This document shows, piece after piece, positions 6,638 to 12,150 of a DNA stretch of 12,150 nt; within the stretch, counting starts at the first letter, position 1, and every line of letters starts with the position of its first letter. The notes below the pieces were generated by a model. It ran no database searches and was not told the DNA's origin. It worked only from the letters and a program-made list of their open reading frames with translations. Source of the DNA: a candidate division WOR-3 bacterium. Lineage in GTDB: Bacteria > SDB-A. The position numbers were made by a program, and so were the translations under genes. The DNA lies in contig JAFGON010000053.1 of the NCBI GenBank assembly GCA_016926475.1, positions 1 to 12,150 on the forward strand. Reading direction: 5' to 3'.

Positions 6638-7350
6638 AACAAAAGCTGAAAAAGAGAATGGTTTCGGCTTTATTTTCTCTTTTTCTGCCCTCAAAATGCC
6701 CGGTTTGCGGAAAATTGCTTTCGGACTCTGAAGTCTATGTCTGTGAAAACTGCCTGAGGGAATCTTTTTATTATGAAAAATGCCCTTTTTGTCATTTTCC
6801 TCTTCCTCTGGAGGGGAAGTGTCTTTTCTGTGGAAGAGATCGGGAAATTGATTCAGAAAACATCTTCTTTTTGGGACCCTACCGCGGGGCTTTGAGAGAA
6901 GCGATCAAAGCCATGAAATTCGAGGGTTATTCCAAAATAGGCAGGATAATAGGAAAAGAATTTTCAAAAGTGATAAAGCTACCGCAGGAAAGATCCGTTT
7001 TTATTCCTGTTCCACTTTCCAGGAAAAACTTCAGAAAAAGAGGGTTCAACCAATCAGCTGTAATCGCTCGATCCGCCGCGGAGGTTTTAAACCAGGATTT
7101 TATCGATGAAGCTCTTCAGGTAAAGGGTAAAAAGAAAAATCAGATGGAGTTGAACCACGAAGAAAGAATTGAAAACATCAGGGGTAAGATGTCGGAGGGG
7201 AAAAATTTCAACTTAATAAAAGGCCGGAATATTATTATTTTTGACGACGTGATGACGACAGGAGAAACTTTGAGGGAGGCAAAGAGAGTTTTAAGAAAAA
7301 CTGAAACAAAGGGTTTATTCTGCGCCGTGGCTGCTATCGTCGTCGATTGA
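6634..7350 (+). CDS. comF: ComF family phosphoribosyltransferase-like protein
   Basis: A 238-residue ComF-type protein. The N-terminus has two four-cysteine knuckles likely to bind zinc: CPVC...CENC (Cys22, 25, 37, 40) and CPFC...CLFC (Cys50, 53, 63, 66). The C-terminal half is a type I phosphoribosyltransferase fold, with YRGALREAIKAMKF (83-96), PVPLSRKNFRKRGFNQS (125-141) and the PRPP-binding loop IIIFDDVMTTGET (200-212). In naturally competent bacteria ComF helps bring transformed single-stranded DNA into the cytoplasm; many non-competent species also carry it, so a competence role here is only inference. The start forms an ATGA overlap with the rodA stop, suggesting coupled translation. 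The last 36 bases also encode, on the other strand, the C-terminus of BatD. No transcription terminator is evident between the two converging operons. Confidence 0.93.
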   Translation: MKQKLKKRMVSALFSLFLPSKCPVCGKLLSDSEVYVCENCLRESFYYEKCPFCHFPLPLEGKCLFCGRDREIDSENIFFLGPYRGALREAIKAMKFEGYSKIGRIIGKEFSKVIKLPQERSVFIPVPLSRKNFRKRGFNQSAVIARSAAEVLNQDFIDEALQVKGKKKNQMELNHEERIENIRGKMSEGKNFNLIKGRNIIIFDDVMTTGETLREAKRVLRKTETKGLFCAVAAIVVD

Positions 7351-9006
7351 TGTTTTCGCGATATTTTCCAGTTTTTCAAAAAGCTTTTCAATTGTTTTTA
7401 TATCCGACGCAATACTTTCATTAGGTGTCTTCCCCGTGAAATCGATCTCTTCAAGATTTGAAAATAAATTCCTGAAATATTCGGTTTTCAAGCGTTTTGA
7501 AGCAAAATCCGACATTTCTCTGAAACTCTCAAGATTTTCATCGCTGAAAAAAGATACAAGGCTCTTTTTTAAAAAAAGAAAGGATTTTTCGTAGTCTCCC
7601 CCCATTGAGTGTTTCCTTGCCTGTTCCAATAACTTTTTGAAAGTTTTCTTTTTTCTGTTTGTTTTCGACAAGAAAATTTTCCGTCTTGAGAAAAATATTG
7701 CTGCTCCAAAAGCGAAAATCGAGACAGACAAGGCGAATGACGAAATAACGACAGATCTAGGCAATTCGGGTATATTCAATTCTCGGATATCTGCGCCCGG
7801 TGGGATTGTGTCGCGCTTATAGCATGTGTCAATAGGTGTCAGGTCTCCTGACGCCGACAATGTGCAGGGAGGAGTTTCGCTCGTCACGTAACTTCCAAGA
7901 GAAGGGTCAAAATAAGAGAATTGGACTGGCTGGATAATTATCGGGGTAGAATTGGTGGGGACGAGCGTCCATTTTGTTGTTTTCTTTCCTTCAATGTAAG
8001 GGGACATCGATGTAATCTCGATTTCAGATGAAGCGTAGTAAAGGTCCGCTCCTTCGGCCTGGGGGGGTTGGATATCTTCGATGCCCTTAATGTTTCCTGT
8101 TCCCGATATTATAACTGAGATCTCGGCGGTTGAATCGACATTTTCTGGAGCTCTAAGGGAGACGAAAAATTTCCCTACGCTGCCCCTAAATGTCGGTGGG
8201 ACACCCTCAAGTGGAAGGGGTTTGACGTTAAGAACGAGTGAATCAGAGTATATATTCAGAATTTTCGGCAAAAGAGGGTATGATGAAAACGTGATTTCGA
8301 CTCCTGCCCCGGAAACAGTCGCTGGTCCTGCCTGAAGAGGGAAGACAATCCATTTAAGAGAGTACTTGTAAACTTTTCCGAAGTCTGTACTTAACTCGGA
8401 TGACTGGAAAAGGCTATCCGCTATTTCCGCCCAAAAACCGTTGAATGAAGGGTAATAGATAAAATCCGGATATTTTAAAAGTTTGAATTTTGAAAATATC
8501 GAGAGTTCTGCGACGATTTGTTCGTTGACGTAAGGATATCTGTCGCTGACGCTCATAGCCATCTTTACGGGATTTATCGCTGTTAAAAGGGGTATTCCGG
8601 AAGAGTCTGTTCCCCTTGAATAAAGCATTACAGAATCCCCTTTTACGCTTACGCTCAGGCTTTTCGTCAGGGCGCTTTCGGTCTTGCCGTTTGACAGAAC
8701 AGCCTCCAAAGTGATTTCATAATTACCACCGGAAAGTGGGTAAACGGAGTATCCATACATATGAATATTTTTTTTGTTTCCGTTGACGATTATTGTGCTC
8801 ATCGAAACAGAAGGATTTGAAATCTGAAGAGAATTGTCGGAATGGATTTTTAGATCGGTAAGCATTTCAGAACCCGTCATCCTGATCTCGACTGTAAAAA
8901 AAGCCGAACCAGCGACTTCGGTTGTCAGAGTCTGCGGTCTTATTACTATTTCAGCGCTGTATAGGTTCGTGAAAATCAAAAAAAACAAAAAAGCCAAAGT
9001 TCTCAT
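7315..9006 (-). CDS. batD: BatD-like protein (Ig-like membrane protein of aerotolerance operon)
   Basis: A 563-residue exported protein. From the ATG at 9006 the N-terminus is a signal peptide (MRTLAFLFFLIFTNLYSA, cleavage probably near residue 18). The frame is open to an ATG at 9045, but that would add 13 polar residues before the signal and overlap the preceding gene by 32 bases, so 9006 is preferred, 7 bases after that gene's stop. Residues about 19-400 are beta-rich, with a BatD-like stretch GKFFVSLRAP and VIISGTGNIKGIEDI (278-313). One membrane helix follows (about 419-439) and then a basic, helical cytoplasmic tail of about 120 residues. Family: BatD/oxygen-tolerance proteins, usually beside BatA, BatB and BatC as here. 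The molecular role is unproven; the layout suggests a membrane-anchored partner of the VWA proteins with its large domain outside the membrane. The 3' end overlaps comF by 36 bases. Confidence 0.85.
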   Translation of the reverse strand: MRTLAFLFFLIFTNLYSAEIVIRPQTLTTEVAGSAFFTVEIRMTGSEMLTDLKIHSDNSLQISNPSVSMSTIIVNGNKKNIHMYGYSVYPLSGGNYEITLEAVLSNGKTESALTKSLSVSVKGDSVMLYSRGTDSSGIPLLTAINPVKMAMSVSDRYPYVNEQIVAELSIFSKFKLLKYPDFIYYPSFNGFWAEIADSLFQSSELSTDFGKVYKYSLKWIVFPLQAGPATVSGAGVEITFSSYPLLPKILNIYSDSLVLNVKPLPLEGVPPTFRGSVGKFFVSLRAPENVDSTAEISVIISGTGNIKGIEDIQPPQAEGADLYYASSEIEITSMSPYIEGKKTTKWTLVPTNSTPIIIQPVQFSYFDPSLGSYVTSETPPCTLSASGDLTPIDTCYKRDTIPPGADIRELNIPELPRSVVISSFALSVSIFAFGAAIFFSRRKIFLSKTNRKKKTFKKLLEQARKHSMGGDYEKSFLFLKKSLVSFFSDENLESFREMSDFASKRLKTEYFRNLFSNLEEIDFTGKTPNESIASDIKTIEKLFEKLENIAKTSIDDDSSHGAE

Positions 9007-9013
9007 AACTTTA

Positions 9014-9979
9014 TTACCATTGCCCTGAAGGCACTGATTTCCCATCGTCTTGAGGGAGCAGAGAATCTTGACCCGGAGAATTTAGAGCCGCGTCGAGGAT
9101 TCTCTCCGCCTGTTCTTTTGTCATCGGAGGTGTTTCGCTCTGGCTTTCCTGATCTTGCTGATCCTGATCGGGATCAGGATCCTGCTGATCCTGTTGATCA
9201 GGATCCTGCTGATCCTGATCTTGTTGATCCTGATCGTTTTGGTCTTGATCGTTCTGATCCTGGTCGGGATCCTGATCTTGTTGATCCTGCTGATCAGGAT
9301 CTTGCTGATCCTGATCGGGTTGATCTTGATCGTTCTGATCCTGGTCGGGATCCTGATCTTGTTGATCCTGCTGATCAGGATCTTGCTGATCCTGTTGATC
9401 AGGATCCTGCTGATCCTGATCTTGTTGATCCTGATCGTTCTGATCCTGATCGGAATCTTGATCTTGTTGATCCTGCTGATCAGGATCTTGCTGATCCTGA
9501 TCGGGTTGATCCTGATCGTTTTGGTCTTGATCGTTCTGATCCTGCTGATTATTTTTCATCCGCAGTGCGATCTCAAGGTTTCTGCGGCACTCATCGTCGA
9601 AAGGGTTAAGAATAAGGGATTTGACGAGTCTGTCTATCGCGTGTTCAAGGTAGGGGCAATTCGACTCCTGGCAATTTTGCGAGGCTTTTAGATACGAAGT
9701 GCCAGCGTTGTAGAGTATGTCTGATTTCATTTCAAAAAGAGCTGAATCCTGCGAGGAAATCGAATCGAATAGTACAGCGGCGCTTTCAGGTTCATTTTTT
9801 TCGTAGAGAACAACTCCGAGGTTGTAGATTACAGACCAATCGTCTGGAGATTCTTCGAGGGCTTCGCGATAAAGTTCTGCCGCTTTGTCGAAATTGCCTT
9901 CGTCATGAAATCTGGCGCCTTCGTAAGCTTTATCAGGAGGTATTGAAAGAAGCAAAAAAGTCAATATCATAAATAGCAT
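9014..9979 (-). CDS. batC: BatC-like exported TPR protein with long Asp/Gln-rich tract
   Basis: A 321-residue product. A short hydrophobic N-terminus (MLFMILTFLLLSIPP) looks like a signal peptide or anchor, then two to three TPR units occupy about residues 17-142 (AYEGARFHDEGNFDKAAELY, VIYNLGVVLYEKNEPESAAV, later YNAGTSYLKAS and HAIDRLVKSLILNP). Three cysteines (103, 108, 131) lie in the last TPR. Residues about 144-279 are almost only Asp and Gln with some Pro and Asn. The last 42 residues return to normal composition and include MTKEQAERILDAAL, a short helix resembling the C-terminal motif of BatC-type proteins. Start: ATG at 9979 with AAGGA 7 bases upstream. It overlaps batB by 13 bases and ends 7 bases before batD. 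The role is probably scaffolding in the Bat complex. The tract length is likely variable between strains, given its repetitive DNA. Confidence 0.85.
   Translation of the reverse strand: MLFMILTFLLLSIPPDKAYEGARFHDEGNFDKAAELYREALEESPDDWSVIYNLGVVLYEKNEPESAAVLFDSISSQDSALFEMKSDILYNAGTSYLKASQNCQESNCPYLEHAIDRLVKSLILNPFDDECRRNLEIALRMKNNQQDQNDQDQNDQDQPDQDQQDPDQQDQQDQDSDQDQNDQDQQDQDQQDPDQQDQQDPDQQDQQDQDPDQDQNDQDQPDQDQQDPDQQDQQDQDPDQDQNDQDQNDQDQQDQDQQDPDQQDQQDPDPDQDQQDQESQSETPPMTKEQAERILDAALNSPGQDSLLPQDDGKSVPSGQW
9151..9541. repeat. Low-complexity GATC-rich repeat encoding the Asp/Gln tract of BatC
   Basis: About 390 bases built from GAT-CAG/CAA-type codon pairs on the minus strand. There is a longer-order repeat: the segment starting GTTCTGATCC at 9251 recurs at 9332 (81 bases, 27 codons) and again at 9437 (105 bases, 35 codons). 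Nearly all internal spacings are multiples of three, so copy-number change would keep the frame. By hand count the stretch has 48 GATC tetramers, most 6 or 9 bases apart, many within GGATCC or TGATCA. In the other frames it produces long spurious open frames rich in Leu/Ile or Asp/Pro. Confidence 0.9.
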
Positions 9980-10980
9980 TTTTTTATCCTTCTTTTCTTT
10001 TCTACAGTGATTGACAAAGCGATGAGAACCGCTCCGATCGCGAGAGGAATTTCATAGTGATAGACAAAGAGAACATCTTGTTTTTGGCTTATAGTTTCTT
10101 TTTTCAAGCCTTCGAGAAAATTGGAAATTTCTTCGGCGGTTCTCGATGAATTCTCAGCTTTCAGATACAGACCTTTGGTCGAGTTTGATATTCGTTTCAG
10201 CATTTCTTCGTCGAGGTAGGTTTTCGCGGTGTCATAAGCTGAAAGCATTATATAACCAGTTATTTCTCCCTTGTAGTTTATTTCCGGAACTGGGTCGCTA
10301 TCGACGCTGCCTATTCCGACTGAAATGACAGGTATACGGTTTTCAGACAGATTTTGAATTCCACCGCTGATATCCGGACCGAAATCTTCTCCGTCGGAGA
10401 GTAGAATTACGGCGGTTGACCTTGTCGCCTCTTTTTCTATTACCCTCTCAAGAGAACCGAAAGCTCCGGATAATGCTGTGCCTGTGCTTGTTGTCGTCTG
10501 AGCGGAAAGTTTTTCTATGGCGCTGAGCAGGCTTCGATGGTCGAAAGTCAACGGGCTTACTATGGTCGAACTGCCGGAAAATATTATCAGGGATATTCTG
10601 TCATCGGGTCGTCTTTCGATTACTCCTGTCATGATCTTTTTTGCCGTCTCAAGTTTTCTGACCGGAAGGGAAGCGTCCATGCTCCTGCTTATGTCGCATA
10701 CGAAAATTACATCGATACCCTTTTTCGTCATGGATGATATTTCAGATTCGTCTGCGGGTCCAGCCGCGGCGAAAAGGAAAGAGACAAGAGCGAGAACGAT
10801 GAAAAATTCTTTCAGAATTTCGGCTTTCATGTCTGTCAAAGACAAATTTGATTTATGGCCCGTCGCTAAAATTTTATCGACCAGTTTCCTCTTTCTCATC
10901 ATATTGAAAACAATGAGAGCGGAACCTATCAAAATAACTACGGGTATCGAGTAGAGGAACAAAGGTCTGGTAAAAATCAT
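9967..10980 (-). CDS. batB: BatB-like VWA-domain membrane protein
   Basis: A 337-residue protein with membrane segments at about 11-28 and 57-74, a von Willebrand factor A domain at about 88-290, and a final membrane helix at about 310-326 ending in a basic tail. The MIDAS metal site is complete: DISRS (Asp96, Ser98, Ser100), a Thr in TSTGT (164-168) and SDGED (Asp196). This arrangement is typical of BatA/BatB proteins of aerotolerance operons; the VWA domain should face the periplasm and bind a partner through the divalent metal. The start forms an ATGA overlap with the batA stop and the end overlaps batC by 13 bases, so translation is likely coupled. The A/B label rests on gene order and on closeness to batC, not on a tree. 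Confidence 0.88.
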   Translation of the reverse strand: MIFTRPLFLYSIPVVILIGSALIVFNMMRKRKLVDKILATGHKSNLSLTDMKAEILKEFFIVLALVSFLFAAAGPADESEISSMTKKGIDVIFVCDISRSMDASLPVRKLETAKKIMTGVIERRPDDRISLIIFSGSSTIVSPLTFDHRSLLSAIEKLSAQTTTSTGTALSGAFGSLERVIEKEATRSTAVILLSDGEDFGPDISGGIQNLSENRIPVISVGIGSVDSDPVPEINYKGEITGYIMLSAYDTAKTYLDEEMLKRISNSTKGLYLKAENSSRTAEEISNFLEGLKKETISQKQDVLFVYHYEIPLAIGAVLIALSITVEKKRRIKKCYL

Positions 10981-11936
10981 GGAATACTCCGAAAAAATGT
11001 CCTGTCGAGTAAAAAAGGTATGGCGATTAGAACGATGGAGGCTATGACCCAGAAATGAGCTTTTGAAGGGCTTAAAGCGAGCATATCACCGGTTTCGGTC
11101 GTTTTTTCAAGACGATCTATCATCGAAAAAGCCTTTTTCAACGCGTTTCTGTCTGTCGCTCGGAAAGCTGTGTTTTCCGATGAAGCGATTTTATCGAGTA
11201 AATCGTAGTCGGCTGTCGAGGCGTAGACGTAACCGTATGTAGGACTGTTGTATGTGAAAGATTCCTGGGTGCCTATTCCTATTGTGTAGATTTTTATTCC
11301 GAGCGCTTTAGCCGCTTCGGAAGCGGTCACAGGGTCGATGTAACCGGCATTGTTCGCGCCGTCTGTGATAAGAATGATAACTTTGCTCGGGCATTCAGAA
11401 TCCCTGAGGCCGTTTGCGGCGAGAGCTAATCCCATGCCTATTGCTGTGCCGTCGGTTATCATTCCTGGCGTAAGTTCTTTTATGCTGTTTACGAGGAAAG
11501 AGTGATTTAACGTCGGAGGCACCAAAAGATAAGCGTCGTAGGCAAAAATGGCAATGCCTATACGGTCGTTTTCGCGTGAATCTATGAAATCGGTGGCAAT
11601 TTTTTTTGCCGCTTCAAACCTTGTCGGCGAAAAATCAGGTGCTTCCATGCTGGTGGAGAGGTCGAGAGCAAGTACGATATCTATTCCGATTTTTTCCCTG
11701 TTCAAAATAATCGGTTTCCCGAGGGGTTCGGCAGCCCCGAGTATCGCGGCTATGGAACTGGCGACATAAAACCACAAAAGAGTATTCTTGACAAAAATTC
11801 TGAAATTTGTCCTTCCGCTGAAATACGAAGACGCGGAAAAAACGATTGACGGTTTACGGGAAAATTGAAGAAACAAACCTAACGCAATCACGGCGGGAAT
11901 AAAAACGAGCAACCAGGGATGCGAGAATCTAATCAT
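10977..11936 (-). CDS. batA: BatA-like VWA-domain membrane protein
   Basis: A 319-residue protein with the typical Bat N-terminus (FSHPWLLVFIP), membrane helices at about 8-24 and 50-68, a VWA domain at about 85-275 and a last helix at about 293-310. The MIDAS is intact: DLSTS (Asp92, Ser94, Ser96), TDGT (Thr164) and TDGANNAG (Asp192). It is the first complete gene of the batA-batB-batC-batD run; MoxR ATPase and DUF58 genes often precede it and may lie beyond the right edge. The start at 11936 has GAGGA eight bases upstream and overlaps, by ATGA, the stop of a mini-ORF. Uniquely here, its ribosome site, start codon and first 10-11 codons are repeated in tandem upstream (11937-12150). The authentic copy reads HPW at residues 6-8, while the upstream copies read HPG. 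Confidence 0.88.
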   Translation of the reverse strand: MIRFSHPWLLVFIPAVIALGLFLQFSRKPSIVFSASSYFSGRTNFRIFVKNTLLWFYVASSIAAILGAAEPLGKPIILNREKIGIDIVLALDLSTSMEAPDFSPTRFEAAKKIATDFIDSRENDRIGIAIFAYDAYLLVPPTLNHSFLVNSIKELTPGMITDGTAIGMGLALAANGLRDSECPSKVIILITDGANNAGYIDPVTASEAAKALGIKIYTIGIGTQESFTYNSPTYGYVYASTADYDLLDKIASSENTAFRATDRNALKKAFSMIDRLEKTTETGDMLALSPSKAHFWVIASIVLIAIPFLLDRTFFRSIP

Positions 11937-12016
11937 AGCTCTATTCCTCTTTTGAAATTTTGCGAAGATTTGCTTTTTCCATAAACGAGCAGCCCAGGAT
12001 GCGAGAATCTAATCAT
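11933..12016 (-). CDS. Mini-ORF (27 aa) repeating the batA N-terminus, ATGA-coupled to batA
   Basis: ATG at 12016 has AGGA seven bases upstream. The product begins MIRFSHPGLLV, near-identical to BatA residues 1-11, then runs through a hydrophilic tail ending KRGIEL and stops at TGA (11935-11933) that overlaps the batA ATG by four bases. It could be a translational-coupling leader peptide, or simply a duplicated gene junction in which the tail is the old C-terminus of the gene upstream of batA. No function can be assigned; whether it is translated is unknown. Confidence 0.4.
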   Translation of the reverse strand: MIRFSHPGLLVYGKSKSSQNFKRGIEL

Positions 12017-12095
12017 TAGTGTTTCCTAATTCTGCTATTTCTGAAAAATAAAGTTTTCCACAGACGAGCAGCCCAGGATGCGAGAATCTAATCAT
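12009..12095 (-). CDS. Mini-ORF (28 aa), second copy of the batA-start repeat
   Basis: ATG at 12095 follows GAGGA with eight-base spacing, the same ribosome site as batA itself. It encodes MIRFSHPGLLV, then a tail unlike that of the neighbouring copies (CGKLYFSEIAELGNTND), and stops at TAG (12011-12009), eight bases of overlap with the next mini-ORF. Its tail derives from the diverged 47-base segment. It may be a decayed repeat rather than a gene. Confidence 0.35.
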   Translation of the reverse strand: MIRFSHPGLLVCGKLYFSEIAELGNTND

Positions 12096-12150
12096 AGCTC
12101 TATTCCTCTTTTGGAATTTTGCGAAGATTTGCTTTTTCCATAAACGAGCA
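12092..12150 (-). CDS. Mini-ORF, third copy, C-terminal part only (cut by window edge)
   Basis: The visible frame encodes the tail LVYGKSKSSQNSKRGIEL and stops at TGA (12094-12092), overlapping the next mini-ORF's ATG by four bases. The tail matches that of the mini-ORF ending at 11933 with one Phe-to-Ser change. Its start must lie a few codons beyond base 12150 if the repeat continues. Alternatively this could be the true C-terminus of a larger upstream gene whose stop overlaps the next start. Confidence 0.35.
   Translation of the reverse strand, partial: LVYGKSKSSQNSKRGIEL

Follow-up and report, generated by a model that had tools for sequence, protein, structure and literature searches.

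A tandem array of batA starts

We found that the batA gene of a bacterium of candidate division WOR-3, a name now placed under Caldifarciminota, (assembly GCA_016926475.1) is preceded by tandem copies of a unit that carries a batA-like start. This array is probably a tandem amplification, specific to this lineage, of the intercistronic junction that separates batA from the gene upstream of it (gene X), and it is most likely tolerated and near-neutral. The window analysed here is the whole of contig JAFGON010000053.1 (C53; 12,150 nucleotides). The array lies at its right end and ends on batA (10977..11936, minus strand), an intact open reading frame for a VWA-domain protein of 319 amino acids (Pfam VWA, 1.4e-20). 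Positions 11905-11991 and 12064-12150 form an 87-nt direct repeat with 95% identity, and a 42-nt core is present in three copies upstream of batA, at spacings of 80 and 79. Another contig from this genome, C61, contains moxR, DUF58 and gene X and finishes in two further array units. The last 62 bp of C61 are exactly the first 62 bp of C53 in reverse (window positions 12089-12150 are identical to the final 62 nt of C61), and no other length of overlap matches. Among 22 sampled contigs, some with ends compared in part, this was the sole contig-end match of at least 25 bases.

The rightward extension that the earlier note on this DNA had proposed for counting units was achieved by joining C61 through this overlap, and raised the count to at least four. 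The joined order is gene X, its TAA, the two bases TA, units B' (79 bp), A (80 bp), B'' (79 bp) and A' (80 bp), and then batA, with two unit types alternating at a spacing of 79/80/79/80 bp. Four is a minimum, since both contigs end within the repeat. All units are near-identical and run head to tail in a single orientation. Each opens with ATGATTAGATTCTCGCATCCTGGGCTGCTCGT, in which the final base is C in B'', and this opening encodes MIRFSHPGLLV. The cores differ from one another at 0-3 of 41 positions and from batA at 3-4 of 34. The 87-nt repeat, the 42-nt cores and the 79- and 80-bp units all bear out the tandem repeated batA starts with a period of about 80 bp that had been described from the window. 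The contents ascribed to each core stood in part: the ATG and the codons for MIRFSHP are there, whereas the ribosome-site-like sequences sit in the variable spacers, including an AGAGGA site ahead of batA in the spacer of unit A'.

Each unit also contains a mini-ORF. In the order B', A, B'', A', these encode 28, 27, 28 and 27 amino acids, their overlaps with the following ATG are 8, 4, 8 and 4 nt, and the TAA of gene X sits 2 nt before the ATG of core 1. Unit A' (11933..12016, minus strand) encodes MIRFSHPGLLVYGKSKSSQNFKRGIEL (27 amino acids), and its TGA stop overlaps the batA ATG by 4 nt. Unit B'' (12009..12095, minus strand) encodes MIRFSHPGLLVCGKLYFSEIAELGNTND (28 amino acids), and its TAG stop overlaps the following ATG by 8 nt. 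The 3' part of unit A (12092..12150, minus strand) has its start on C61, where the complete unit is MIRFSHPGLLVYGKSKSSQNSKRGIEL. The claim of chained ORFs of 27-28 codons, with stop/start overlaps of 4-8 nt and ending on batA, was therefore correct; C53 contains two of them whole and a third that is truncated at its end. The mini-ORF frame is open in every unit, and no indel has disrupted any frame.

Both contigs break inside the array, and neither unit number nor continuity was read directly. The repeats could in principle reflect an assembly or strain-mixture artefact, that is, metagenome misassembly or contig ends that come from different strains, but we consider this very improbable. Two full units and a partial third are present on C53 alone, and two on C61. 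The copies differ by substitutions (one base between A and A', 9 of 38 spacer positions between B' and B''), which a false join would not produce. The 62-bp overlap is exact, with no other overlapping ends among the sampled contigs, and the gene order DUF58-geneX-batA is the same as in relatives.

A single junction in related genomes

The comparison set comprised four genomes of the phylum, including two congeners (G001 and G002) and one genome of the same family (G003). In G001, G002 and G003, gene X runs straight into batA through a single junction with no repeats. The two genes overlap by 8 nt in G001 (ATGTTTAG) and G003 (ATGAGTAG) and are separated by a 1-nt gap in G002 (TAAGATG). Searching G001 and G002 for the array DNA returned chance-level matches only. 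With one geneX/batA junction in each of these three relatives, the array is, on this comparison, lineage-specific. At the level of sequence, the repeat-free junctions also speak against the dedicated leader that the earlier note had envisaged. The G003 contig (C36; L036:4996-5089) stops about 90 bp into batA, and no repeat is visible up to there.

Origin of the repeats

The B' spacer carries a copy of the end of gene X. Its last 24 nt match that end at 23 of 24 positions (0 of 2,000 shuffles were as good), and a 64-nt repeat with 98% identity, covering the last 24 nt of gene X and the head of batA, recurs 79 bp downstream. The head of batA is present in every unit. With the gene X end fused to a batA-like start on C61, and the 64-nt repeat beside it, the suggestion of a duplicated upstream-gene/batA junction is supported. 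Spacer A resembles the gene X tail weakly (49 and 257 of 2,000 shuffles were as good), and that most of it can be traced to gene X only weakly counts against this reading. In the roughly 290 kb of the genome that was sampled, the repeats within batC and a single 22-bp array were the only other arrays we found.

We infer the following order of events and mechanism. A segment with the gene X tail and the first 30-40 nt of batA would have been duplicated, by slippage or unequal recombination, and the copies would have drifted apart into an 80-bp type (A) and a 79-bp type (B). A further duplication, of the 159-bp B+A pair, would then have given at least four units. The junction had also been suggested to be decaying. 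Divergence of the B spacers at 9 of 38 positions fits this description, but the cores are near-identical, so the array is either recent or homogenised. Recent homogenisation would explain near-identical cores beside diverged B spacers with no indel, as would constraint on the starts. The array is probably a recent local duplication and not a dedicated control device.

A short mobile element that inserts with target duplication would leave an element between two copies of its target, and a geneX/batA-type junction with this architecture and similar sizes occurs in an unrelated genome, G057. There (C302; L008:1406-1515), an exact 36-bp repeat that includes the batA start flanks 38 nt of filler that contains a palindrome of the form GACAGACA-TTAC-TGTCTGTC. 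This palindrome is a dispersed REP-like element with 68 sites (L067-L081). Direct repeats of 12-18 nt flank a few of its copies, and contig C10 has it as a 74-bp tandem array. These features suggest that the G057 palindrome inserts with an unusually long target duplication. Both loci duplicate the geneX/batA junction including the batA start, but in G057 the filler is a dispersed palindromic element, whereas the filler of the array is locus-specific and partly derived from gene X. Spacers A and B had no match with up to three mismatches in the genome outside the array and contain no strong palindrome, and B' consists in part of gene X sequence. There is accordingly little chance that the array arose by such an insertion. 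We also rejected a dispersed REP or MITE element, as both spacers are confined to the array, and a CRISPR-like array of constant cores and variable spacers, as the spacers recur as homologous pairs (B'/B'' and A/A') and part of B' comes from gene X.

The phase of the mini-ORFs and re-initiation

The striking phase of the units is, judged from the start itself, largely automatic. The batA start, ATGATTAG, has a TGA in its +1 frame and a TAG in its +2 frame. Because both other frames contain stops, any incoming frame except that of batA terminates inside these eight bases. For every stop to fall on the next start, it is therefore enough that the spacer is open and that the unit length is not divisible by three. 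The reported pattern, in which each unit ends just at the next start, is real, and its phase follows from ATGATTAG. That all units are open counts against the duplication reading, given that shuffled spacers stay open up to ATGATTAG with a probability of 0.09 (A) and 0.155 (B), or 0.09 x 0.155 for both. By contrast, arbitrary 45-nt pieces of the bat operon, read in any frame, are open in 64% of cases, and a spacer given nine random substitutions is still open with a probability of 0.57-0.80. An open frame is therefore weak evidence in both directions.

Were gene X and batA transcribed together, ribosomes leaving gene X would cross four ORFs of 27-28 codons before reaching batA. They could pass by ordinary termination-reinitiation, by local initiation or by both, and the intact batA start keeps a moderate Shine-Dalgarno (SD) sequence. 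Predicted SD pairing is -4.2 kcal/mol before cores 1, 2 and 4 and -6.0 kcal/mol before core 3 and batA; a value of -4.2 falls inside the strongest quarter of random sites and outside the top 10%. A re-initiation chain through the units is physically plausible on a shared transcript, because a weak or moderate SD precedes each ATG and because reinitiation at overlapping gene pairs is documented (PMC6728339).

Such a chain could also be functional. The mini-ORFs would then lose ribosomes stepwise, and unit number would set the level of BatA-D relative to MoxR, DUF58 and gene X, possibly varying by recombination between units. The weak or moderate SD at each start, the unbroken frames and the stops that overlap the next start by 4 or 8 nt all fit this reading, and the 4-nt overlap is a documented coupling geometry (PMC6728339). 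However, ATGATTAG by itself forces the overlap, open frames are frequent in operon pieces and usually survive nine random substitutions, an SD of -4.2 kcal/mol is short of the top 10% of random sites, and the array is absent from all relatives compared. We therefore regard a functional cascade as unlikely. Doubtful to a greater degree is a natural serial translational-coupling ladder, in which the number of recombinable mini-cistrons, at least four, would set the amount of Bat VWA proteins relative to MoxR/DUF58 within one operon and could change it quickly. The re-initiation cascade tuning Bat expression that the earlier note had put forward is possible but finds no positive support in the sequence.

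Peptide and RNA features

Three changes from batA are common to all units. One of them replaces W8, which is invariant in the BatA proteins of congeners, with G. Because this conserved residue is lost in every unit, the copies are freed from the constraint on BatA. Between B' and B'', 6 of 10 changed codons are non-synonymous. Together with the loss of W8, this led us to reject selection at the peptide level.

A structured RNA leader or riboswitch was also rejected: the array had no Rfam match (E up to 1), and its fold was no better than expected (z of +1.24; 180 of 200 shuffles folded at least as well). We found no sigma-70-like promoter in the window part of the array and no terminator in either its window part or its C61 part. 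In the C61 part, two overlapping weak sigma-70-like matches end at 11640, and there are four matches in that stretch where 0.9 would be expected.

Comparison with known systems

Short tandem duplications and VNTR-type intergenic arrays are a known class of tandem repeat. The array resembles them in its head-to-tail units of about 80 bp, which break the assembly and are lineage-specific. It differs in that each unit holds the start codon and first 11 codons of a gene, and so also forms a chain of ORFs. In bicistronic-design or translational-coupling leaders, the stop of a short upstream ORF overlaps the start of the target gene. The array shares this short upstream ORF and stop/start overlap with the synthetic designs, but those are engineered and single, whereas the array is natural and serial, and any effect it has is putative.

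Synthetic coupling elements are treated in PMC11602170, and termination-reinitiation at overlapping gene pairs (ATGA and similar junctions) is well documented (Huber et al. 2019, PMC6728339). As in those pairs, each mini-ORF stop overlaps the next ATG, and the geneX/batA junction of G001 and G003 is itself such an overlap. In contrast to them, the array repeats the junction at least four times, and its upstream partners are fragments of 27-28 codons with no known function. In the open-licence PMC literature, we found nothing specific on naturally occurring serial arrays for reinitiation or on duplications that tune expression. When a start has stops in both other frames, as ATGATTAG does, duplication of an overlapping gene junction automatically produces coupled mini-ORFs in a chain. 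Selection is thus not needed for a perfectly phased cascade to arise, and such a cascade is by itself no sign of regulation. Were copy number to tune the downstream genes, the array would offer a simple, naturally occurring way to adjust translational coupling.

The bat operon and gene X

Gene X (L003:10613-11560 on C61) encodes 315 amino acids and follows moxR and DUF58. The copy in the array genome had no match in Pfam or NCBIfam. Gene X lies directly upstream of batA in 4/4 family genomes compared. The minus-strand operon runs in the order batA, batB, batC, batD. BatA is 83% and 78% identical to the BatA proteins of the congeners and matched the NCBIfam BatA_Lepto model at 4.4e-50, under the cut-off of that model. 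The batB gene (9967..10980, minus strand) encodes a VWA protein and overlaps the end of batA by 4 nt, batC (9014..9979, minus strand) encodes a TPR protein, and batD (7315..9045, minus strand) matches Pfam BatD (1.2e-11). We also observed a second repeat-rich spot in the operon, a long D/Q-rich coding repeat within batC at 9147-9549 of the window, with periods of 24, 81 and 105 bp.
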